From Gammaproteobacteria bacterium (GTDB taxonomy: Bacteria > Pseudomonadota > Gammaproteobacteria > S012-40): a stretch of 64,000 bases of DNA. The notes under the pieces were generated by a model. That model did no database searches. It was not told the origin of the DNA and saw nothing but the letters and a program-made list of their open reading frames with translations. The position numbers were made by a program, and so were the translations under genes. The stretch lies in NCBI GenBank assembly GCA_015487785.1, contig WFPC01000054.1, positions 1 through 64,000 on the forward strand, in the 5' to 3' direction. Below are positions 10,576 to 23,923 of the stretch, piece by piece (position 1 is the first letter of the stretch; each line of letters opens with the position of its first letter).

Positions 10576-11457
10576 TCAGGGCTCGCCCGGCAAGAAGGCC
10601 CGCCGCAGATAAGCGATGATGTCATCGATCTGCCCATCGCTCAAAACCCATTTCCAGGCCGGCATGGCGCTGCCCGGCACACCCTCACGAATCCGCTCCC
10701 GCAACGCCTCGTCGGACAACACTGCCAAATCCCTGGCATGAGTGAAATCACGCGGGCGCGGCTCCAGGTAGGCCCCTACCCAGTGTCGCCCGCTGCCATC
10801 GGGCGCATGACAAAAAGCACAATTGGCCTGATAGAGACGCTCGCCGCGACGTTCACGGTCATCGAGCCCGGTCAGTCTGGGGGGCTGTTCATGCAAGGCA
10901 TAGACCGATGCCCCGCTGATGCTGTCCGGCGCACGATGGGAATAGCCGTTGCGCGGAAACGACAACGGCCGCGCCTGCCAGATCGCCCCTTCCTCCGTCA
11001 CCCGCGCACGGTCGTGACAACTCACACAACTGCTGAGATACAAGCGCTTGCCCGCCCGCTGAGTCTCGCTCAATTGCTCCCAAGGCGTGTCCAGAGGGAT
11101 CTCGCCCAGGGCAAAGGGATAGGCGGCACGGTAACGCTGATGATCCGGCCAGCCGTTTTCCGGTGTGTGGTAACGGGTATTGGGCCGCCGCCGCAAGATG
11201 AAATTCTCGCGCACGAAATCCACCACCGCCGCGATCTCCGTTTCGCTGAGCACGCCCCCAAAGCCCATCATGGCGGTGCCGGGCCGACCATCACGCACCG
11301 CCTTTATCATGCGCTGGCGAGTCAGCACGTCAGGGTCGGCCCGAGTGAATGCCCGGGGCGGCGGATCGAGAAAACTGGCTGCCAGGGTATCACCATCACC
11401 GGCATAACCGTGACAGAAGTAACACCGGTAGTTATAGATCCGGCGCCCTTGCTCCAA
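10576..11457 (-). CDS. Trihaem c-type cytochrome without its own visible signal peptide
   Basis: Three CXXCH motifs (CYFCH, CVSCH, CAFCH); the only start seen is TTG at 11457; no ATG/GTG/TTG upstream in frame before the preceding in-frame stop. Confidence 0.8.
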   Translation of the reverse strand: MEQGRRIYNYRCYFCHGYAGDGDTLAASFLDPPPRAFTRADPDVLTRQRMIKAVRDGRPGTAMMGFGGVLSETEIAAVVDFVRENFILRRRPNTRYHTPENGWPDHQRYRAAYPFALGEIPLDTPWEQLSETQRAGKRLYLSSCVSCHDRARVTEEGAIWQARPLSFPRNGYSHRAPDSISGASVYALHEQPPRLTGLDDRERRGERLYQANCAFCHAPDGSGRHWVGAYLEPRPRDFTHARDLAVLSDEALRERIREGVPGSAMPAWKWVLSDGQIDDIIAYLRRAFLPGEP

Positions 11458-11471
11458 ACCGGCCTTCGTCG

Positions 11472-12509
11472 CTAGGACGGGCTTTTTTTTTCCGTCTCCG
11501 CCCGAATGAACGTCTGAAACACGTATTCGGCCACGTCGGCAATCTGCTGCGCATCCAGCACCCGTTGCCAGGCCGGCATCACCGAGCCCCGCTTGCCCTG
11601 GGCGATAGCGCGAAACAGACGGGGCCGGTTGAAGCGGCTGCGGCTGTCGGCACTGGTGAAATCACGCGGACGGGGATAGTTAAAATGAGCCCGCGGCCCC
11701 CGGCCGTCACCTTTGCGGCCGTGGCAGGTGAAACAATTCTGCTGGTAGAATGCCCGTCCCCGCGCCACATCACCCTGCAAACCACCAGGCATGGGCTGGT
11801 CCATGTCCACCATCGGCGGACTCTCCTGCGACGTGGCGACAGGGGCCGAAGCCGTCGCATCGCCATCCGTTCCCAGCCCCATGAAAGCTTTGCGCACATA
11901 GTCCACCACCTGCTCGATCTCCTGGCGACTCAGGCGCGAGCGAAATGGCATCATGGCAGTGCCCGGGCGTCCATAGCTCACCGAGGTGATCATGCGCTCA
12001 CGCGACAGCTCCTCCCGCGCCTCGGGACGGGTGAAGTCACGCGGAGGCGGATTGAGTCCATTGCGTGCCCACACCGCTGTGTTGCCCCTGTCACCATGGC
12101 AGGCCGCACAATGCTTCACATAGATGGCCTTGCCGGCGGCGAGGCGCGGATCCCCGGCTGCCGGCGCGGCATTCTCGGCCGGGGCCACGAACCGGGTGCG
12201 GATAAACCGCGCCAGGGCTTGGATCTCCTCCGTACTCAGCCGACGGCCATAACCCACCATGGCGGTACCCGGCTTGCCATCGCGAATGATCCGCAGCATG
12301 TATTGTTCGGTCAAGCGGGCGGGATCGGCCCGGGTGAATGCGGTGGCCGGTGGCGACAACTGCACTCCAGCCCGGCCCCGGCCATCGCCCTCGTCTCCAT
12401 GACAGGTGCCACAGTATTTCTGATAGAGCGTCTGCACCGCAACGGCTGCGACGGCCGGGCCGGCCAGCAGCCACAGGCTGGCCAACAGGACCCAATAGCG
12501 TTTTTTCAT
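11472..12509 (-). CDS. Trihaem c-type cytochrome with signal peptide
   Basis: MKKRYWVLLASLWLLAGPAVAA signal; CXXCH x3 (CGTCH, CAACH, CFTCH). Confidence 0.9.
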   Translation of the reverse strand: MKKRYWVLLASLWLLAGPAVAAVAVQTLYQKYCGTCHGDEGDGRGRAGVQLSPPATAFTRADPARLTEQYMLRIIRDGKPGTAMVGYGRRLSTEEIQALARFIRTRFVAPAENAAPAAGDPRLAAGKAIYVKHCAACHGDRGNTAVWARNGLNPPPRDFTRPEAREELSRERMITSVSYGRPGTAMMPFRSRLSRQEIEQVVDYVRKAFMGLGTDGDATASAPVATSQESPPMVDMDQPMPGGLQGDVARGRAFYQQNCFTCHGRKGDGRGPRAHFNYPRPRDFTSADSRSRFNRPRLFRAIAQGKRGSVMPAWQRVLDAQQIADVAEYVFQTFIRAETEKKSPS

Positions 12510-12671
12510 TATGTACCGCACAATAGATTTCGAAGGCGGCCCCAGAGCGGCCGCTGATTGGCTTCGTAGTGTGGCGCAAAAACAGGTTTTACGCTACCCT
12601 AAGGCCGGGTGAACCTTACCGTGCTCGACGACACGGTCAGAACCAGAACAACAATACCTTCGGAAAACAGC

Positions 12672-13523
12672 ATGCAGGTGGTAAAAACAGGTCTTCGGAA
12701 CCTCAGGCGCGCTCTGCGCTGGCCGTTGGTGGCCACGCTGGGGCTGCTCTGTGGTGCCTGGTTGCAAGCCACCCATGGCGAGGCCATCATCGGTGATCCG
12801 GTTCAGGGCGCCAATGATCCCATCCTTGGCTCCAAACACGACTTCAGCGGATTGAACCGGCGCGCTGGCGTGGTGGCCATGCCCACCGTCGCCTTCAGCG
12901 ACTACGGCAATCCCTGTGTATACTGCCATATCCCGCCGGAACAAGCCGATGTGGATGCCAGTGCCCTGGGCGCCATCGATGGTTGGAACCGTTACCAGCC
13001 CGCCACCAACGAGTTCCAGCTCTACAACAGCACCTACCTGGATTCCAAGACCCGCACACCCAGCCCCATCAGCCTGCTCTGCCTGTCCTGCCACGATGGC
13101 ACCATGGCGGTGGACATGGTGGTGTTCAAGCCGGGCAATTTCGACAATGCCGCCGACACCGCCATGCACATGCGTATCAACGGTGCCGACAACACCATTA
13201 GCTGCGGCAAATGCCACAATGGCCGGGTGGCTCACGACATTTCCATCAAGCACATCGGCCAGGATCTGCGCAACGACCATCCCATTTCCATGCGCTACGC
13301 CGGGCTGCCTCCCCATTACGCCGGTTTCCCGGATGCGCCCAAGGGCTTCGTATCCGACCCGGACTTCCGCCTGCCCCATTCCGAAAAGGGCTTCAGCAAT
13401 GGCGTGCGGCTGTATGAGGGCCGTGTGGAGTGCGCCAGTTGCCACAATGTGCATAACCCGGAAAAAGACCTGTTCCTGCGGGTCAACTCGGATCTGCTCT
13501 GTCAGACATGCCATACCAAGTAA
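12672..13523 (+). CDS. Pentahaem c-type cytochrome (doubled-CXXCH / OmcE-like)
   Basis: CXXCH x5 (CVYCH, CLSCH, CGKCH, CASCH, CQTCH); LCLSCHDGT, NDHPIS, VECASCHNVHNP, LLCQTCHTK; signal peptide at MQVVKTGLRNLRRALRWPLVATLGLLCGAWLQATHG. Confidence 0.88.
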   Translation: MQVVKTGLRNLRRALRWPLVATLGLLCGAWLQATHGEAIIGDPVQGANDPILGSKHDFSGLNRRAGVVAMPTVAFSDYGNPCVYCHIPPEQADVDASALGAIDGWNRYQPATNEFQLYNSTYLDSKTRTPSPISLLCLSCHDGTMAVDMVVFKPGNFDNAADTAMHMRINGADNTISCGKCHNGRVAHDISIKHIGQDLRNDHPISMRYAGLPPHYAGFPDAPKGFVSDPDFRLPHSEKGFSNGVRLYEGRVECASCHNVHNPEKDLFLRVNSDLLCQTCHTK

Positions 13524-14569
13524 TCGGCCTAGCCCTGCTGGGGCTGCTGCTGGCCGGCTGCGCCGCCTCGCCCGAGCATCGCGTGCCCCCCCCCGTCTTC
13601 CCGCCACCACCGGAGGAAGCCCGGCTGATCTACGATGGCAGCCTGCGCAGTAGCAAGGACATCGAGGCCCGCGGTTTCAAGGACGTACTGCAACAGGTGG
13701 CCACCGGGGTGCAGATAGACCCCGCCGGACTGGGCAAACCCTACGGGGTCGCGGTACACAAGGGACGCATCTACGTCACTGATACCCAGCAACGGGCCAT
13801 CGTGCTGTTCGACCTGTCAGCCAGGCGTTTCCGCCTGCTGGCCAGCGAAGGCGACGGACGGGTGATCAAGCCCATGGGCATAGACATCGCCCGTAACGGT
13901 GACCTCTATGTGGCCGACATCACGGCGCGCCAGATCAAGGTCTACGATGCCGAGGGACGCTTTCTGCGCAGCATCGGTGACAAACGCCTGTTGCGGCGTC
14001 CCAGCGGCGTGGCCCTGAGTCCCGACGACCGTCGACTCTATGTGGTGGATACCGGCGGCCTGGACAGTGACGAGCATCATGTCCGGGTTTTCAATCCTGT
14101 CAGCGGCGAACTGCTGCAAACCATCGGCCGCCGTGGCACCGCCAACGGTGAATTCAACATCCCTCTGCAGGCCGATACCGCGCCCGACGGCACCCTCTAC
14201 GTGGTAGACAGCGGCAACTTCCGAGTCCAGGCCTTTACCCCCGATGGCCGTTTTGCCCGCAGTTTCGGCAGCCTGGGGCGTCGCAGCGGCCAGTTCTCCC
14301 GCCCCAAGGGCATTGCCGTGGATCCCCAGGGCAATGTCTACGTGGTGGACACCGCCTTCGGCAATTTCCAGATCTTCGACCCCGAGGGCCGCTTGCTGTT
14401 GTTCGTGGGTTACCGCGGCACCAGCGGTGGCCCGGCCCGTTACATGCTCCCCGCCGGCATCGACGTGGACGAGGCAGGTCGGGTCTACGTGGTGGACCAG
14501 TTCTTCCGCAAGGTGGACATCTTTCGCCCCGCCGGGCTCGAACCGCTACCCCATATTCCCAAGTTCTGA
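13508..14569 (+). CDS. NHL-repeat beta-propeller lipoprotein
   Basis: Lipobox LLLAGC; repeated GxGxxxxPxGIAVDxxGNVYVVDT-type NHL blades. Confidence 0.88.
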   Translation: MPYQVIGLALLGLLLAGCAASPEHRVPPPVFPPPPEEARLIYDGSLRSSKDIEARGFKDVLQQVATGVQIDPAGLGKPYGVAVHKGRIYVTDTQQRAIVLFDLSARRFRLLASEGDGRVIKPMGIDIARNGDLYVADITARQIKVYDAEGRFLRSIGDKRLLRRPSGVALSPDDRRLYVVDTGGLDSDEHHVRVFNPVSGELLQTIGRRGTANGEFNIPLQADTAPDGTLYVVDSGNFRVQAFTPDGRFARSFGSLGRRSGQFSRPKGIAVDPQGNVYVVDTAFGNFQIFDPEGRLLLFVGYRGTSGGPARYMLPAGIDVDEAGRVYVVDQFFRKVDIFRPAGLEPLPHIPKF

Positions 14570-14582
14570 AACCATCCTGCTC

Positions 14583-17042
14583 TCAGGCGCGCCGCCCCAA
14601 ACGCCAACCCTGTGTCGCCAGCCACTCGTCGAAACGTTCCAAGGGCATGGGGCGCGCCACATAAAAGCCTTGGACCAGATCACAACCCAATTGCTCCAGG
14701 CGGCGATAGCTCTCCTGTGACTCCACACCCTCGGCCACCACTTCCAGACCCAACTGATGTGCCAACTCGATGGTGGAACGCACGATGACCTCGCTGTTCT
14801 CGTCCTTCAATAAGGACTGGCCGAAGGATTTGTCGATCTTGAGTTCGCTCACCGGCAACTGTTTCAGATAGGCCAGCGACGAATAGCCGGTGCCGAAGTC
14901 GTCGATGGACAAGGCGAGCCCCAGCTCACGCAACCGCTGCATGGCGCCGATGGCCTGCTCCGGCTCGTCCATCAGGGAGGTTTCGGTGATCTCCAACTTG
15001 AGTTGCACGGTGGGGCTGGCCGCATCCTCGAGCACCCGCCTGAGGCTCTCGGCGAAATCCGGATCCGCCAGGTTCAGCATGGACAAATTGATGGAAACCG
15101 GCAAGGCCTGGCCCTGCAAGTGGGCCTGGTAATCCTTCAATGCCTGACGCACCACCCATAGGGTGAGCGGTTTGATCAGACCGGTCTGTTCCGCCAGGGG
15201 CACGAATTCGTCCGGCATCAACAGGCCGTGCTTGGCATGCTGCCAGCGTACCAGGGCCTCCAGGCCAATGACCCGGTGACGCCTGAGATCCACCTTGGGC
15301 TGATAGTGCAGGCGCAACTGGCCCTTGCGAATGGCTTCCTGCAACTCGTTGCTGATCTCCAACTGCCGCAGGCTGTGGGGATCCTTGTTTTCGTTGTACA
15401 CCACCACGCCACCACCGGTGCGCTTGGCCAGATACATGGCCACATCGGCCCGCTGCATCAGTAGCGAAGCACTGGCGCCGTGTTCGGGATAGAGCGCCAC
15501 GCCCACGCTCAGGCGCGCGCTGAGAGCATGTCCTTCCACCACCACTGGCGGCTCCATGGCGGCGATGATCTTGCGCGCAATGAACACTGCCTCCTCGGCA
15601 TCGGCAAACGGCAGCAGCACGGAAAACTCGTCCCCCCCCAGGCGGGCCACGGTGTCCGATTCCCGCAGCGACGAGGTCAGGCGATGGGCAAGCTGTTGCA
15701 AGAGCTTGTCTCCCACATGATGTCCCAGGGTGTCGTTGACCTCCTTGAAACGGTCGAGATCCATCAGCAACAGGGCGAGGGGACGTTTTTCCCGTTGTGC
15801 CTCGCGCAGAGACTGCTGTAGCCGGTCGTAAAGCAGAACCCTGTTGGGCAAATCGGTCAGGGCATCGTGCAAGGCCTGGTAGCGCAACGCCGCAGTTCGC
15901 GCCTTGCGCCGGGTGATGTCGCGCACCACAGCGATATAGTAGCGAACATCGCCCAGCCACATTTCGCCGATACTGGCTTCCATGGGAAACTCTCTTCCAC
16001 CGCGCCGCCGCCCCGACATTTCGCGCGCCAGGCCCAGCACGGGCTGGAGCGGCTCCCCCTTCCCGTCCTTTCGGGGTGGGTAGATATCGGGGATGATCTC
16101 GGTGATGGACTGACCCAGCAGGGCTTGCCGGTCATGACCGAAAAGCTGCTCCACCGCCGGGTTGATCATTTCGACGATGCCGTTTTCACGAAACATCACC
16201 ACGCCGTCGATGACATGATCCATCACTGCGCGCATGCGATCTTCGCTGATGCGCAGGGCGGTCTGCATCTCGTTGAACACCCGCGCCAGCTCGCCCAATT
16301 CATCGGGCCGGGCCACCGGCAGCCGTGCCTCGCGGTCCCCTCCGGCGGCGGCCTTGATCGCCCCATGCAGGGAGGCCAGAGGCTTGAGCACCTGGATGCG
16401 CAGGGCAAACCACAGGGCCAGCGTCAACAACAGAACGAGGAAGACGCCACCGGCCAGCAGATTGAACTGCATACCCAGCAAGCGTTTTTGCAGGGTTTGC
16501 GAAGAAACCGTGAGAGTCAACACGCCGCGCAACCTGCCCGCATCGTAACCATGACACGCCAGACATTCCACCTCGGCGACAATGGGCAGGGCCACCGAAG
16601 TCAGGCCGGCACGGGCCTGCACATCATAGACGTTCTCTCCCGCCAGGGCCCGTTCGAACAGCGCCGGCGGTGGTCGGGCCGACGGCAGTTCCACCGGCTG
16701 TCGGCGGAACCGCTCCTCACCCAGGTAACGGTTGACTGCCTGCACAGTCTCCAGGTCGGTGAAGGCGGGCCGGCCGTTGCGGCGCCAGACGGCAACCTGT
16801 TCGATGCCATCTACTGCGCGCAGGCGATCCAGCCATTGCTGAGCCAAGGTGCCATTGCCATTGAGCATCAGGGTCTGCAGACTACCGAGCAGGGTCTGCG
16901 CATGCAACTCAGCCTGCTCCACCGCTTCGTCCTCGATGGCCATCGCCAGTTGACGTTCCAACCATATACCCACCAACAACACCAGCCCCAACAACACCGA
17001 CGCAATGGCCAAGGCCACACGCGCGCTCAGACTGTTGCGCAT
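14583..17042 (-). CDS. Membrane sensor diguanylate cyclase/phosphodiesterase: periplasmic haem-binding (DUF3365-like) domain, HAMP, PAS, GGDEF, EAL
   Basis: CLACHGYDAGRLRG in the periplasmic part; PAS (VIDGVVMFRENGIVEMINPAVEQLFG); RESD-x5-GGDEF; EALVRW, DDFGTGYSSLAYL, VVAEGVE. Confidence 0.92.
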   Translation of the reverse strand: MRNSLSARVALAIASVLLGLVLLVGIWLERQLAMAIEDEAVEQAELHAQTLLGSLQTLMLNGNGTLAQQWLDRLRAVDGIEQVAVWRRNGRPAFTDLETVQAVNRYLGEERFRRQPVELPSARPPPALFERALAGENVYDVQARAGLTSVALPIVAEVECLACHGYDAGRLRGVLTLTVSSQTLQKRLLGMQFNLLAGGVFLVLLLTLALWFALRIQVLKPLASLHGAIKAAAGGDREARLPVARPDELGELARVFNEMQTALRISEDRMRAVMDHVIDGVVMFRENGIVEMINPAVEQLFGHDRQALLGQSITEIIPDIYPPRKDGKGEPLQPVLGLAREMSGRRRGGREFPMEASIGEMWLGDVRYYIAVVRDITRRKARTAALRYQALHDALTDLPNRVLLYDRLQQSLREAQREKRPLALLLMDLDRFKEVNDTLGHHVGDKLLQQLAHRLTSSLRESDTVARLGGDEFSVLLPFADAEEAVFIARKIIAAMEPPVVVEGHALSARLSVGVALYPEHGASASLLMQRADVAMYLAKRTGGGVVVYNENKDPHSLRQLEISNELQEAIRKGQLRLHYQPKVDLRRHRVIGLEALVRWQHAKHGLLMPDEFVPLAEQTGLIKPLTLWVVRQALKDYQAHLQGQALPVSINLSMLNLADPDFAESLRRVLEDAASPTVQLKLEITETSLMDEPEQAIGAMQRLRELGLALSIDDFGTGYSSLAYLKQLPVSELKIDKSFGQSLLKDENSEVIVRSTIELAHQLGLEVVAEGVESQESYRRLEQLGCDLVQGFYVARPMPLERFDEWLATQGWRLGRRA

Positions 17043-17117: not shown

Positions 17118-18512
17118 TTATTTCCCTCCACCAGTCAATGATTTGACCGTACCGACGAACAGAATACGGTCGAAATGACGCGCCAGGGTCTTGCTGTAGA
17201 AGTTCCCCATGGAAACACCCTGGCTATAGGCGATTTCCTGGCCTGGCCGCACATCTGTCACCGGTGCCGCCAGCCACTGTTCCGCGGCATCATCGGCGCG
17301 CCGCACCCGGATATAGCTGTAGGCCGGTGTCTGCAAGATCTCCATGACTCGACCACGATGGGGAAGGGAGGCCTGTTGCGACCGGGGGCGGTCCTGCTGC
17401 CGGGCAAGGCGACGCTGTTCGGCCCGGGCGGCGGGCAACAGCATACCCAGGCGGCCATCGGCGCGAATGCTGGCGCGGTAAACCCGGTTGGAATAGCGCC
17501 CCGGCCCGGCACCGCCCAGCACATAGAGGACGTCGCCCACCACCAGGGTGTTGAAATTGGACAAGGGTTCGGGCAAGGAGGTGTTGTCCCGCCAAGGGCC
17601 CACGTCACCCGACGGGCCGAGACGGGCGAACTCGACACGATCGAGATATTCGCTACCCGTGATACCCCCCAGGGCATAAAGATACTCACCCCAGCTCGCC
17701 GCCGCCAGGCCATAGCGGCCCTGTTGCAGGGGCGTGGTTTCCCGCCAACGCGGCTCGTGGTCATCCAGGGGAGCGAACTCCACTGCGGCCAGACCCACGC
17801 CGTGCTCGGCATCGTGCCCGCCAAGCACGTACACGTGATCACCGTGACGTTTCACCGCATTGACGTAGCGCGGGCGGGTCAGGGTAGGCGTCGCCAGGCG
17901 CCAGGGCTCACTGCCATCACCCCCCAGCAGGGTCCACTCCACACTGTCGAGCAGGCTGCCGGCATACCCCCCCAGGGCCAGCAGGCGGTCACCATACAGA
18001 CAGACCTTGGCGCAGCGCCGGGGCAATCGCAGGGTCTGGGGCAGGGTCTCCCATTCCCCCAGTTCGCCATCGGCCTGGATCCTGGCCCGCACCACGCTGG
18101 CGAGCAGGTTTTCGCCATGCCGTCCATTGGCGCCACCGATCACATAGAGATATCCCCCATGCACCACCGCGTCGGCAAACCCCCGCGCCTCAGGCAACAG
18201 GCGGCGGGGCCGCCAGGACGACAAACGCCCATCCTGCAGAATGCGCGCCGATTCCACCGTGCGCAGATAGATGCGTCCATCCACGCCGCCGATCATGTAG
18301 ATACGACCATCGTGCACCACCGCCGCGGCACCAGCGCGCATCACCGTCATGGGTTCGAGCGCTTCCCACTCCGGCAGCCACACCGTATCTTCCACCACCG
18401 GCGCAGCGCCGTCCTCGCCGCCGCAGGAATTCAGCAACAGAACGCACAGCAGAAGCAGGCACGACGACAACGCACGGCGCAGAGCCAAAGCGCGATCGGC
18501 TGCAAAAGGCAT
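17118..18512 (-). CDS. Kelch-like beta-propeller lipoprotein with NrfJ-like C-terminal domain
   Basis: Lipobox LLNSC; Kelch-type blades (VYVLGGHDAEHG, YLYALGGITGSE, VLYVLGGAG); C-terminus GRVMEILQTPAYSYIRV...FYSKTLARHFDRILFVGTV. Confidence 0.75.
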   Translation of the reverse strand: MPFAADRALALRRALSSCLLLLCVLLLNSCGGEDGAAPVVEDTVWLPEWEALEPMTVMRAGAAAVVHDGRIYMIGGVDGRIYLRTVESARILQDGRLSSWRPRRLLPEARGFADAVVHGGYLYVIGGANGRHGENLLASVVRARIQADGELGEWETLPQTLRLPRRCAKVCLYGDRLLALGGYAGSLLDSVEWTLLGGDGSEPWRLATPTLTRPRYVNAVKRHGDHVYVLGGHDAEHGVGLAAVEFAPLDDHEPRWRETTPLQQGRYGLAAASWGEYLYALGGITGSEYLDRVEFARLGPSGDVGPWRDNTSLPEPLSNFNTLVVGDVLYVLGGAGPGRYSNRVYRASIRADGRLGMLLPAARAEQRRLARQQDRPRSQQASLPHRGRVMEILQTPAYSYIRVRRADDAAEQWLAAPVTDVRPGQEIAYSQGVSMGNFYSKTLARHFDRILFVGTVKSLTGGGK

Positions 18513-18554
18513 TTTCAGCAGCCCCGCCGAAACGAGACCATTGCAGGACAAGAA

Positions 18555-19778
18555 TCAGTAGCGCCCATACAGGCGCGCCACCCCGCCAAAGCTGCCCACC
18601 CACAGACTACCGTCGCGGGCCACGGCCATGGAAAACACATTGTCGGCGAACAGGCCGTCATTACGGGTGAGGACGGTAAAACTCTCGCCATCGGGATTGA
18701 GCCGGGCCAAGCCACGGCTGGTGCCTATCCATAGACGCTGCTTGGGATCCACATAGACCATGAACACGTGATTGGAAGGCAGTCCGTCCTTGACCGTGAA
18801 GTTACGCCAGCTCTTGCCATCGAAACGAGCCAGGCCGCCACCCCAGGTACCACCCCACACCACGCCCTGCTCATCCACCGCCAGCGACACCACGTAATTG
18901 GGGTTATAGGCCACGTTCACCCGCGATAAACCCTGTTCCTGTTTCTGCTGGGCATGATGGCGGGACGCCTTGCCGGGGTCGGAACTGAATTCGATATCGT
19001 CCTTCACCCGTTCGAACGGCGCTCCCAGCCCGGCATCATGCTGCCAGTTCTGCCATTGGCCGTCCTTGTAGCGGGCCACGCCGTTCTCGGTGGCGAACCA
19101 CATGGCACCGTCGGGCCCTTGCTCCAGGCCGTAGACCCAGTCGTTGGGCAAGCCCCCATCGGTGTTCTCCAGGTTAAAGGTCCGCCACTGGCTGGGGTCG
19201 TCCAGCTTGCCCTGACGCACACGGTTGACCCCGGACCAGGTGGCGATCCACACATCGCCATCGGCCACCTTTTGCACATCGTAGACGAACTGGTCGGCCA
19301 GGCCCTGGGGAATATTGTAATTGGTCCAGCTATCCTTGGCCGGGTCGTAGATCGACAAGCCACCGCCATAGGTGCCCACGGCGATCTTGTCGTCGAGCTT
19401 GCTCAGGTGGAACACGCCGTTGGAGAGCAGATGACCACCGGCCACGTCGTAGAGGGTGTATTCGTCCTTGTCCAGGTCATAGCGCAACACCCCCCCGGAG
19501 GTGCCCACCCACACCCACTTGCCGTCGGCCAACATGCCCTTGACATTGCGATTGCCCACCCGGAAATGGCTGAACCGCGGCTTCTGCGCCTGACTCAGGG
19601 GGGTATCGTGCGATGTATTGTCCTCGGCCCCCGGTGCCTTGGCCGGTGCGACCGGTGCCTGGGCATCAGCGCGCGGACTCGGCGGGATTTCACCCTGGGA
19701 ACGCCCCAGCACATAGGCCAATACCACGGCCAGAACAACCGCCCCGCCTATGGCCGTTTTTTTCATTCTACTGTTCAT
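18555..19778 (-). CDS. 'Two-component regulator propeller' domain protein, N-terminally membrane anchored, no kinase domain
   Basis: Repeats such as GVVWGGTWGGGLARFDGKSWRNFTVKDGLPSNHVF, QRLWIGTSRGLARL; N-terminal TM. Confidence 0.85.
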   Translation of the reverse strand: MNSRMKKTAIGGAVVLAVVLAYVLGRSQGEIPPSPRADAQAPVAPAKAPGAEDNTSHDTPLSQAQKPRFSHFRVGNRNVKGMLADGKWVWVGTSGGVLRYDLDKDEYTLYDVAGGHLLSNGVFHLSKLDDKIAVGTYGGGLSIYDPAKDSWTNYNIPQGLADQFVYDVQKVADGDVWIATWSGVNRVRQGKLDDPSQWRTFNLENTDGGLPNDWVYGLEQGPDGAMWFATENGVARYKDGQWQNWQHDAGLGAPFERVKDDIEFSSDPGKASRHHAQQKQEQGLSRVNVAYNPNYVVSLAVDEQGVVWGGTWGGGLARFDGKSWRNFTVKDGLPSNHVFMVYVDPKQRLWIGTSRGLARLNPDGESFTVLTRNDGLFADNVFSMAVARDGSLWVGSFGGVARLYGRY

Positions 19779-20902
19779 TGTTCTCGCTTCTCTGTCGTTG
19801 CTGTCAGGCGGGCCACGCCATGACGGGTACCCACCCAGACATCACCCCGGTCGTCCAGCGCGATGGCATAGACATGTTGATCCAGCAAACCCTCGGACCT
19901 GCCGAAATGCTGCCAATGTCCTTGCCGGAAATAGCTCACGCCATGATTGGTACCGAACCACAGGCCACCATCGGCACCCTCGGCCAGGCTGTAGACGATA
20001 TTGCCGGCCAGGCCGTCGTCGGTGGTGAGATTGTGCCAGCGCTGGCCGTCGAAACGACTGGCGCCGCCGCCCCAGGTACCGGCCCAGACCTGATCCTCGT
20101 CAGTAACCAGCATGCTGAACACATAATTGGGATTGTAGGTCTCGCGGCCCGCGGCCAGCACACTGAGGTCATGGCGCGCGCGCGTGCCCAATCCGGTATT
20201 GCTGCTGAACGGCAGCTTGTCGCTATTGGGCGCGCCCAGGCCATCGGCATGGGTCCAGACATGCCAGCGCTCGCCATCGAACATATTGACCCCGCCCTCG
20301 GTGCCCAGCCAGACCCGTTGCCGGCTGTCCACCGCCAGGCCATAGACCCACTCGTTGACCAGTTCCTTCACATAGTTGCGAAAGCTGCCCGTGCGCCGAT
20401 CCAGCACGCTCACGCCCGCCCAGGTGCCTATCCAGATGCGACCATCAGCCTGCTCGGCAAAGGCATACACCCAGTAATCGGCCAGCCCGTGAAAAGGGAA
20501 ATAGGTCGTCCAGCCGCGGGCAGTCTTGTGCGACACACCGCCCCCGTTGGTGCCCAACCACAGGCCACCCTCGCTGTCCACCATGGCGGCAAACACGTAC
20601 TCGTTGGCCAGGGCGTTGTCACGGGTATAGGTATGCAGCACCTCGCCGCTGCGGGTATCCACTTCCAGGGCACCCACCGAGGTACCCACGATCAAGTGTC
20701 CGTCGCGGGCGTTGAAGGCGAGCGCCCGCACGAAGACATTGTCGCCCACGTTGAAGGTCTCGGCCACCTGGTAGTGGGGAATCACCGGAGCCGCTGGCCG
20801 GGCTGGAGGTTCGCCCCCGGCCCTTTCGTTCGCTGGGGTGCCGGCGTCACATCCCGCCAGGCCCAGTAACAGGACAAGCAGCAGGCACGCCCGCACGCTC
20901 AC
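19775..20902 (-). CDS. 'Two-component regulator propeller' domain lipoprotein, no kinase domain
   Basis: Lipobox LAGC; repeats VWAGTWGGGASRFDGQRWHNLTTDDGLAGNIVYSL, GLWFGTNHGVSYF. Confidence 0.85.
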   Translation of the reverse strand: MSVRACLLLVLLLGLAGCDAGTPANERAGGEPPARPAAPVIPHYQVAETFNVGDNVFVRALAFNARDGHLIVGTSVGALEVDTRSGEVLHTYTRDNALANEYVFAAMVDSEGGLWLGTNGGGVSHKTARGWTTYFPFHGLADYWVYAFAEQADGRIWIGTWAGVSVLDRRTGSFRNYVKELVNEWVYGLAVDSRQRVWLGTEGGVNMFDGERWHVWTHADGLGAPNSDKLPFSSNTGLGTRARHDLSVLAAGRETYNPNYVFSMLVTDEDQVWAGTWGGGASRFDGQRWHNLTTDDGLAGNIVYSLAEGADGGLWFGTNHGVSYFRQGHWQHFGRSEGLLDQHVYAIALDDRGDVWVGTRHGVARLTATTEKREQ

Positions 20903-21237
20903 AAGAAGGTCCTGATATAGGCCACCACGTTGGCAATGTCGTCGTCACTGAGCATGCCACCGAAACCCGGCATCATGCCCTTGCCCCTGCGGATGCCGTC
21001 GATCAGTTCCTGGTCGGTCTGAAACAGGCTCTCGCCGCGGGCAAAATTCGGCGTCCCCGCCATGACACCCTCACCACCGGCACCATGGCAGGACTGGCAA
21101 CGACTCAGATAGACTTCCCGGCCCTTGAACACGTCGGCGGCAAAACCTGCCGGCGGCACACACAACAAAAACAGGGCCAAGGCGAAAAACGGTGTGCTCC
21201 GCACCCTGTGCAAAGGTGATGTCATGCTCACCTCCAA
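20899..21237 (-). CDS. Monohaem c-type cytochrome, class I
   Basis: Signal peptide, GREVYLSRCQSCHGAGGEG, MMPGFGGMLSDDDIANVVAYIRTFL. Confidence 0.9.
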   Translation of the reverse strand: MEVSMTSPLHRVRSTPFFALALFLLCVPPAGFAADVFKGREVYLSRCQSCHGAGGEGVMAGTPNFARGESLFQTDQELIDGIRRGKGMMPGFGGMLSDDDIANVVAYIRTFL

Positions 21238-21350
21238 TCCAAAACGGGAAGCGGAATTTTAGCCCGGATGTTTCATGAAGGAAATGCTTTTCGACCCCTG
21301 ACCAGAACGGCCAGGGGGTGCGTGGCAACAGGCAACGAATGGGCTTCTTT

Positions 21351-22178
21351 CTACTTCAGACCAAGACGCAGGCGACGCTCCGTGAACCAGTCGTCGCTCA
21401 CACCGCCGTTGATCACCACATCGGAGACTTCGAAGAAGGAAGAATGAAAGGTCTGCACATTCTGCACGAAGACCTTGTCCCACACCCATGCCGGCCCTAC
21501 TTTTTGCCACTTGAGCATCTGCCGCTTGAGAAAGGCCCCCTTGGTGTCGAAGTAGTCCACCCGCACCTTCACACAGCCTTCCCAGTCCTGGGCTCGCTTG
21601 AACCAGGAGACACGCTTGCTGTACTGAGGATCATCTTCCTTGGGCGTGCTGACCACCACATAGTATTGCTGGCCCTGCTTGTCACGGTCGATGCGGATCA
21701 ACTCATGCTTGTCGGCCTCCACCGGGCGATAGCTGATATCGCCATAGGTCAAATCCGAGCCGAGGAAGCTGTCGCTGAGGTCCCGCACCGAGACCCGGCG
21801 AATCTTGCGCAGCACCGGCAGATAGATCCATTGCTCGGCATTCTTGTTGGCGTCGGCGGCATAGGCCCAGCGCATGAAGGCCGCCCCCTTGGCATCGGGC
21901 GGAAAAATGGTGAACAACACCATCTTGTCGAGCACATTGTCCTTGCCCTTCATGTCTTTCCAGTAGCGTGCGTAGACGGTCTTGCGCTCGTTGCCGGCCT
22001 TGTCCTTGAGCGTGATGCTCAGGGTGGAGCGTTGATCGTCACCGGGATATTTGTAATCACAATTGCGCACCACCTCGTCACCGGTGATATCAACCGCACC
22101 GGCAACCCCGGTCAACAGCAAGCTGCCAGCACATACCAGGGCGGCCAGCAACTTGCTCCGTCTCAGCACGTCATGCAT
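21351..22178 (-). CDS. Outer membrane lipoprotein-sorting protein (LolA-like superfamily), secreted
   Basis: Signal peptide (MHDVLRRSKLLAALVCAGSLLLTGVAGA) and pattern YWKDMKGKDNVLDKMVLFTIFPPDAKGAAFMRW...WIYLPVLRKIRRVS...SFLGSDLTYGDI. Confidence 0.8.
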   Translation of the reverse strand: MHDVLRRSKLLAALVCAGSLLLTGVAGAVDITGDEVVRNCDYKYPGDDQRSTLSITLKDKAGNERKTVYARYWKDMKGKDNVLDKMVLFTIFPPDAKGAAFMRWAYAADANKNAEQWIYLPVLRKIRRVSVRDLSDSFLGSDLTYGDISYRPVEADKHELIRIDRDKQGQQYYVVVSTPKEDDPQYSKRVSWFKRAQDWEGCVKVRVDYFDTKGAFLKRQMLKWQKVGPAWVWDKVFVQNVQTFHSSFFEVSDVVINGGVSDDWFTERRLRLGLK

Positions 22179-22486
22179 ATCAGATACACTCCTCACAAAT
22201 GATTCAAAACTTGGCGGCTGCCACGCATGCTTTCCTGCCAGACACGCGCAGGCCCGCACTTGGCAAAACAAAACATCTACACCTATAGCGATTGCCCACG
22301 GAAAAACTTAACCTGCCCGACGGTTACGCCAACACCGTCGCACGACCCCGCAATCGCTTGCATGAATTTCATCGCGCAAGTCCGGCGAATGGAGACATCT
22401 ACACGATAGATCCAGTAGACAGGCGGGACAGCCCCGGAGTTCACGGCGACAACACGATCCTCACAGACCGAAGAGGGATGATAAAC

Positions 22487-22543: not shown

Positions 22544-23590
22544 TTAGATACAGCCCGCCCCGGAAGGATCGCTCAAGCAAGGCGCGGTGCCAAACTCGCC
22601 ATCCCAAAGACCATCCCAGGGACCCGCCGCATTGCCGGCGCCAAAGCCGCTGGCGGAGATCGCAGGATTGGTATCGCTCAGGTTGTCGAAGGCCACATAG
22701 CCGAAGTTGCTGGTCATGGAGTCGCCGGCATTGGTGATGTTGGGAATCACAATGCGCTGCCCCATCCAGATGGCCTTGATGTCGTCACCGGCGGCCCAGG
22801 TCATGGTGTCGGCACCGATGGTGATACCGGTGGCATTGGCCGTGGTGGTGTAGGCCACCCCGCGCTTCTCACGGAAGGCGAAGGTCTGCTTGTCGGCCTG
22901 GTCGCCACCCACGGCATAGAGACCCGCAATCTGGCCGATTTCCATCTTCATGCCACCGTTGCCGCCGGCAATGGATTCGAAGCTGAAATCGCTGAAGAAG
23001 TTGTCACCGTCGTCGTTGACCGCGGTGGGCGATACGGTGGGCGTGGGCTGCCCGGTGAAGGTGCCGCCCAGATCGACCAGGTTCTGACCGATCTTGATGT
23101 CGGCGGTGGTGTTCAGCGCCGTCTTGGCCCAACTGGAGGTGGCGATCTGAGTGGTAGACTCGAAACCACCCCCGCGCACGGCATCGGTCTCGACGATGGT
23201 CTGTACCGCGGCAATGCCCGGATTGGTCTGATTGACCGCGCCGGTGGGCGTGTTGTTGGAGAGTTTCACATAGCTCTGGTCAAAGAAGGACTTGGCAGCC
23301 GTCTGGTCGGCCACGAAGGTCATCACGTAGGTGTCCTGGCCCGGAGCGGTACCGCCCGGCACACCGGCCGTGGCACCCACCATGATCTGCAGGAAACCCT
23401 CACCGGAGGCGATTACGCTACACTGCTCGGTCCCGCCCTGGGATTGACAGTAGCTGGGCATGCTGACTGCCTTGGTGGTCGGATCAACCGCAAGCTGATC
23501 GAACGCACCCGCGGGCAGTTGCGCATTGGCCGCGGCACTCATTGCCAGCATCGCCCCTGCAACAGATGCCAAGTTAAAGCTGTTACGCAT
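22544..23590 (-). CDS. Secreted protein of unknown function
   Basis: AGGAGGT ribosome site before ATG 23590; signal peptide MRNSFNLASVAGAMLAMSAAANA; mature protein not recognised. Confidence 0.8.
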   Translation of the reverse strand: MRNSFNLASVAGAMLAMSAAANAQLPAGAFDQLAVDPTTKAVSMPSYCQSQGGTEQCSVIASGEGFLQIMVGATAGVPGGTAPGQDTYVMTFVADQTAAKSFFDQSYVKLSNNTPTGAVNQTNPGIAAVQTIVETDAVRGGGFESTTQIATSSWAKTALNTTADIKIGQNLVDLGGTFTGQPTPTVSPTAVNDDGDNFFSDFSFESIAGGNGGMKMEIGQIAGLYAVGGDQADKQTFAFREKRGVAYTTTANATGITIGADTMTWAAGDDIKAIWMGQRIVIPNITNAGDSMTSNFGYVAFDNLSDTNPAISASGFGAGNAAGPWDGLWDGEFGTAPCLSDPSGAGCI

Positions 23591-23923
23591 AGCAACCTCC
23601 TGGTTTATCTTTAATTCTGTATCCTGCGCGGTTGTCCCTTGTGACCCCGTCACGCCGCGAACATCAATGACCGCCCGGTGGCAGTCGCAATTTCGGACAA
23701 GCTATCACGCCGACATTTCCCCGTCAATACATCGGGGCTAAAGTCTGCCGGCCATCGGCCGATAATCTGGGGTTAAGCCTAACGTTTTTTTCTTACGTCT
23801 CGCTTAAACCCGCTCGACCGCCGCTCCCCTGGCCGCTGTTCCCGGCCGGATACCCAACGGCTCCCGACCTCTTCTGGGTGCTACTTTAGCGCTTCAATAT
23901 TTACTCTCGCTTAAATTTCGCCA

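Follow-up and report, generated by a model that had tools for sequence, protein, structure and literature searches.

Among filament-forming multihaem cytochromes, the contact between subunits has been described down to single ligands. In OmcS, haem V is coordinated by His-16 of the adjacent monomer (PMC13319180), and inter-subunit histidine coordination is also reported for OmcE (PMC9473688; PMC12307469), the four-haem filament subunit of Geobacter sulfurreducens (7TFS). A second related setting is the Uet-type system with its tetrahaem UetA and undecahaem UetJ, which is described in cathode-oxidising Tenderiales and some Gallionella (PMC10734462). Lists of "nanowire" homologues rest on sequence similarity to OmcE.

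The window analysed here, a stretch of 64,000 nucleotides from the gammaproteobacterial contig WFPC01000054.1, encodes on its forward strand a pentahaem cytochrome, P0001, that is placed in the OmcE superfamily by homology, motif and alignment evidence. Its reading frame runs from an ATG at 12672 to the stop at 13523, the interval already named in the preliminary description, and specifies 283 residues; a longer in-frame alternative begins with a GTG at 12609. The N-terminus is hydrophobic and, by eye, carries an apparent Sec signal peptide of about residues 1-38 without a lipobox, the mature protein comprising about residues 39-283. The five CxxCH motifs are CVYCH (His86; 12915-12929), CLSCH (His141; 13080-13094, continued by DG), CGKCH (His182; 13203-13217), CASCH (His258) and CQTCH (His281; 13500-13514, the last residues of the C-terminal CQTCHTK lying at 13512-13520). 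That P0001 has five haems is near certain.

Searches against Pfam and NCBIfam returned generic multihaem matches only. Of the solved structures, P0001 matches the filament chain of OmcE, 7TFS, best (phmmer E=6.1e-13, residues 51-283), followed by 9YUQ, a "putative multiheme cytochrome c" with 16 copies of one chain. A profile of P0001 relatives, which matched 13 PDB sequences at E<=1, gave 6.8e-35 for 7TFS, 8.6e-27 for 9YUQ and only 0.0017 for OmcS. As 7TFS is the best solved match, it is right to file P0001 near OmcE, and judged by sequence its homology to OmcE is near certain. The contrary outcome, in which soluble c3/NapB-like cytochromes would be the best matches, did not occur in the Pfam, NCBIfam and PDB profile searches. 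Neither the archaeal AvECN/PcECN nor the cytochrome c552/ExtKL pentahaem group is among the 13 PDB sequences; the ExtKL-type pentahaems of cable bacteria (PMC11976967), which were also considered, are without sequence match. AlphaFold2 models built without haems reached a pLDDT of 43 (44 rows) and of 65 (72 rows; medium confidence), and a Foldseek search against the PDB gave chance matches only, so that the models speak neither for nor against an OmcE-like fold. Fold matches are likewise reported to be lacking for OmcE and OmcS, except to their own homologues (PMC9473688).

P0001 and OmcE share, along the whole mature length, the elements SKHD, CVxCH, WNR, CxSCHDG, NDHP, CxxCHxVH and a C-terminal CxxCH. 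The OmcE motif order recognised in the preliminary description therefore holds for WNR, SCHDG, NDHP and CHNVH, but it breaks after the first CxxCH, where P0001 has "IPP" and the template "TPH"; the histidine absent here proves to be the difference that matters. P0001 differs from OmcE in having five haems and not four, in lacking the histidine three residues past the first CxxCH (CxxCH+3), and in possessing His166 and His188.

When genomes of bacteria and archaea were scanned, 49 loci emerged, of which two encode Nitrospirota tetrahaems and 47 belong to the P0001 subfamily, the latter all from gammaproteobacterial or proteobacterial MAGs. Forty-six intact copies were aligned together with that of the window. 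The copy left out, L051:7440-8188, is an orthologue split into two ORFs with three and two haem motifs, which is either an assembly error or a broken gene. All 47 aligned sequences, at 52-80% identity, are pentahaem and keep every CxxCH, so that the extra CGKCH is a genuine fifth haem motif, as had been supposed. With two whole-genome copies, the fuller subfamily set comprises 49 loci and 47 distinct sequences. Exactly ten histidines are invariant in the subfamily: the proximal ones at 86, 141, 182, 258 and 281, and five outside the CxxCH motifs at 56, 166, 188, 203 and 261. These are enough for five bis-His haems, in agreement with the earlier estimate, and in 11 of 49 members the mature part contains no spare histidine beyond them. 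Since the five CxxCH motifs and the five other histidines are invariant across all the aligned sequences despite this divergence, the motif pattern is not a product of chance. The tree joins the P0001 subfamily in one clade (99/99) and the pentahaems that keep TPH in a separate one (98/97); the fork that decides between one and two gains of the fifth haem has a support of 88/82, and long branches meet there. Within the OmcE superfamily, the P0001 subfamily represents a conserved variant that is new.

In OmcE, in the Nitrospirota relatives and in the Uet-type tetrahaems, the histidines outside the CxxCH motifs stand at columns 56, 89, 203 and 261, and often there are no others. As such tetrahaems often possess exactly four of these histidines, all four, column 89 included, must be ligands in them, provided that their haems are bis-His. 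Of this set, P0001 keeps His56 (in SKHD; 12837-12839), which is invariant in 47 of 47 sequences and present in all OmcE-like sequences aligned, as well as His203 (in NDHP; 13278-13280) and His261 (in CASCHNVH together with the fourth CxxCH; 13431-13454), both common to OmcE according to the alignment. Column 89, the third residue past the first CxxCH, is lost: Pro89 (12936-12938) takes the place of the CHTPH histidine in P0001, and proline or aspartate occupies the column in all 49 subfamily members, whereas each of the 49 OmcE-like sequences from outside the subfamily has histidine there (16 of 16 in a second pentahaem subfamily and 33 of 33 in the rest). His166 (13167-13169), a putative new distal ligand, is invariant in the P0001 subfamily and in the TPH-keeping pentahaems and absent from the tetrahaems. 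His188 (13233-13235), a candidate replacement for the lost histidine, is invariant too and occurs in the P0001 subfamily only, which is therefore the only one among the OmcE-like sequences compared to combine the loss of column 89 with the gain of His188. As a change in sequence, this exchange of ligands is certain.

Column 89 coincides with the place of His16 in OmcS, as checked with the numbering of chain 6EF8, and from this position we infer that the CHTPH histidine would be the trans ligand of OmcE. Because the CxxCH+3 histidine is missing in 49 of 49 members, an OmcE-type polymerisation of P0001 is unsupported; the filament envisaged in the preliminary description retains the homology to OmcE but loses the sequence support for its polymerisation. 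Ligation within one subunit is possible, as is a linkage via His188, and we consider it reasonably probable that the ligand change results in cis ligation and in the absence of an OmcE-type polymer. P0001 might instead polymerise in an OmcE-like manner with five haems per subunit, using His188 at the interface or dispensing with a trans histidine altogether, as OmcZ polymerises without trans ligation (PMC9473688). In line with this, a filament subunit and the 16-copy 9YUQ are the closest solved relatives, and an association with NHL proteins is common to OmcE-like tetrahaems. We nevertheless regard such a filament as unlikely, as the sole sequence feature tied to OmcS polymerisation, which is identically placed in OmcE, is absent throughout the subfamily. 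A filament joined specifically via His188, which would be particular to lithoautotrophs of the Uet type and would amount to a new interface chemistry among OmcE-related proteins, seems quite unlikely to us. P0001 is not to be called a nanowire yet.

The gene order around P0001 is mostly conserved across the orthologous loci. The cytochrome gene overlaps by 16 nt with a gene on the same strand (13508-14569) for an NHL-repeat beta-propeller lipoprotein with the lipobox LLLAGC. An NHL gene adjoins the cytochrome in 48 of 48 orthologous loci, usually with an overlap, and a lipobox-like motif is present in 43. Most of the remaining OmcE-like and undecahaem cytochromes in the collection likewise have an NHL gene beside them. 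In the Nitrospirota, the tetrahaem OmcE-like genes are directly followed by an NHL gene as well (L053:7878-9744; L054:7935-9661). Upstream and divergent, on the reverse strand, lie cytB (11472-12521), with three class-I cytochrome c domains, and cytA (10576-11457), a class-I cytochrome c protein with three CxxCH motifs, and both are conserved beside P0001 in the orthologous loci.

Of the 13 genomes of the order, 11 carry the subfamily, among them all 9 of high quality, and in the class it occurs in 32 of 369 genomes, always as one copy; a sample of 399 genomes of the phylum contained none at subfamily level besides the window's own genome, the other matches having E values of 1e-19 or weaker. 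Relatives of the undecahaem cytochrome, searched with that of the Uet-type cluster in the same genome, occur in 42 of the 369 class genomes, including all 32 carriers of P0001. This co-occurrence, which extends over 13 families, has a hypergeometric P of ~1e-37 if the genomes are treated as independent although they are kin, and it may partly reflect shared ancestry. The cytochrome and undecahaem genes share a contig in G034, G048, G082, G181, G252, G310 and G347, with a spacing of ~26-37 kb in several genomes; two inspected intervals contain, by eye and size, genes resembling ccm genes for cytochrome c maturation.

In the window's own genome (G000), the Uet-type cluster is found at about 97-110 kb of contig C55 (L055 and L056), just after a RuBisCO gene, and consists of NHL, OmcE-like tetrahaem, SurA-like PPIase, a porin-sized ORF, trihaem, NHL and undecahaem. 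It matches the Uet inventory of PMC10734462 in its undecahaem, tetrahaem, trihaem, PPIase and NHL genes, whereas Pfam gave no match for the porin candidate of 592 aa. Its tetrahaem keeps CHTPH (E=2.4e-20 to OmcE) and would be a better filament candidate than P0001. P0001 itself lies outside this cluster on a separate contig, and no pentahaem is named in the list of Uet parts in PMC10734462. The two clusters resemble each other in combining OmcE-like cytochromes with neighbouring NHL proteins, and they share the same genomes; they differ in that the UetA-like protein is a tetrahaem with CHTPH kept, whereas the cluster of P0001 stands apart and includes cytA and cytB, a GGDEF-EAL protein and propellers.

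With moderate confidence we think that P0001 is an accessory outer-surface cytochrome, a carrier or connector, of the Uet-type electron-transfer system, and that it is self-contained and not an OmcE-type polymer. P0001 would be secreted and would act at the outer surface together with the NHL-propeller lipoprotein with which it is co-translated, carrying or connecting electrons in an accessory role in Uet-type extracellular electron transfer. All five haems would be bis-His. Relative to OmcE, a third haem with the distal ligand His166 would have been gained, the CxxCH+3 histidine lost, and His188 gained beside haem 3, so that, most simply, the haem that was formerly ligated across the interface would now be ligated by its own chain. 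On this reading P0001 acts as a self-contained carrier or a terminal or bridging unit, although His188 could instead act across an interface. The homology to OmcE, the number of haems, the conserved ligands, the arrangement of the genes and the co-occurrence with the undecahaem are observed; to these the account adds what we infer of the outer-surface location of P0001, its cis ligation, its partner and the direction of electron flow. That P0001 is a periplasmic shuttle linking redox partners of the inner membrane to those of the outer membrane, with no role at the cell surface, would suit the apparent signal peptide without a lipobox and the conserved triple-domain cytochromes cytA and cytB, but we hold it to be improbable, given the lipoprotein-like NHL partner with paralogues adjoining OmcE-like and undecahaem cytochromes, and a best match other than the soluble c3/NapB families.

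The second pentahaem subfamily (~345 aa) resembles P0001 in the inserted haem 3 and the distal histidine at column 166, and differs from it in keeping the CxxCH+3 histidine and lacking His188. In 16 related loci a member comes directly after the NHL gene (about 10000-11200 in L013-L034, L046 and L050), in L028 partly so, and the window's own genome has one at L004:1207-2451 on contig C55. One copy, L021:10097-11113, has a CX4CH (CANSACH) as its haem 3 motif. As relatives in the same genome keep the CxxCH+3 histidine, they offer a clean natural test of the role of the linking ligand. The P0001 subfamily preserves the OmcE core without the residue at the OmcS-linking position, and homology alone is therefore no predictor of polymerisation. 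In addition, the gene for the cytochrome and that for the NHL lipoprotein form a pair, new, conserved and present in single copy, that is tied to Uet-type electron transfer in at least 13 gammaproteobacterial families.

Further downstream on the reverse strand, the conserved neighbours at 17118-22271 encode a kelch protein, two Reg_prop propellers, a monohaem cytochrome c and a LolA-like protein; beyond them, a secreted-looking protein of 369 aa without a Pfam match is encoded at 22544-23653 (reverse strand). Immediately downstream of the NHL gene lies the gene for the GGDEF-EAL protein with HAMP and PAS domains and an N-terminal CxxCH (14583-17042, reverse strand). This protein is possibly a haem redox sensor tied to c-di-GMP, and its periplasmic-looking N-terminal CxxCH is kept in 14 of 18 homologues.
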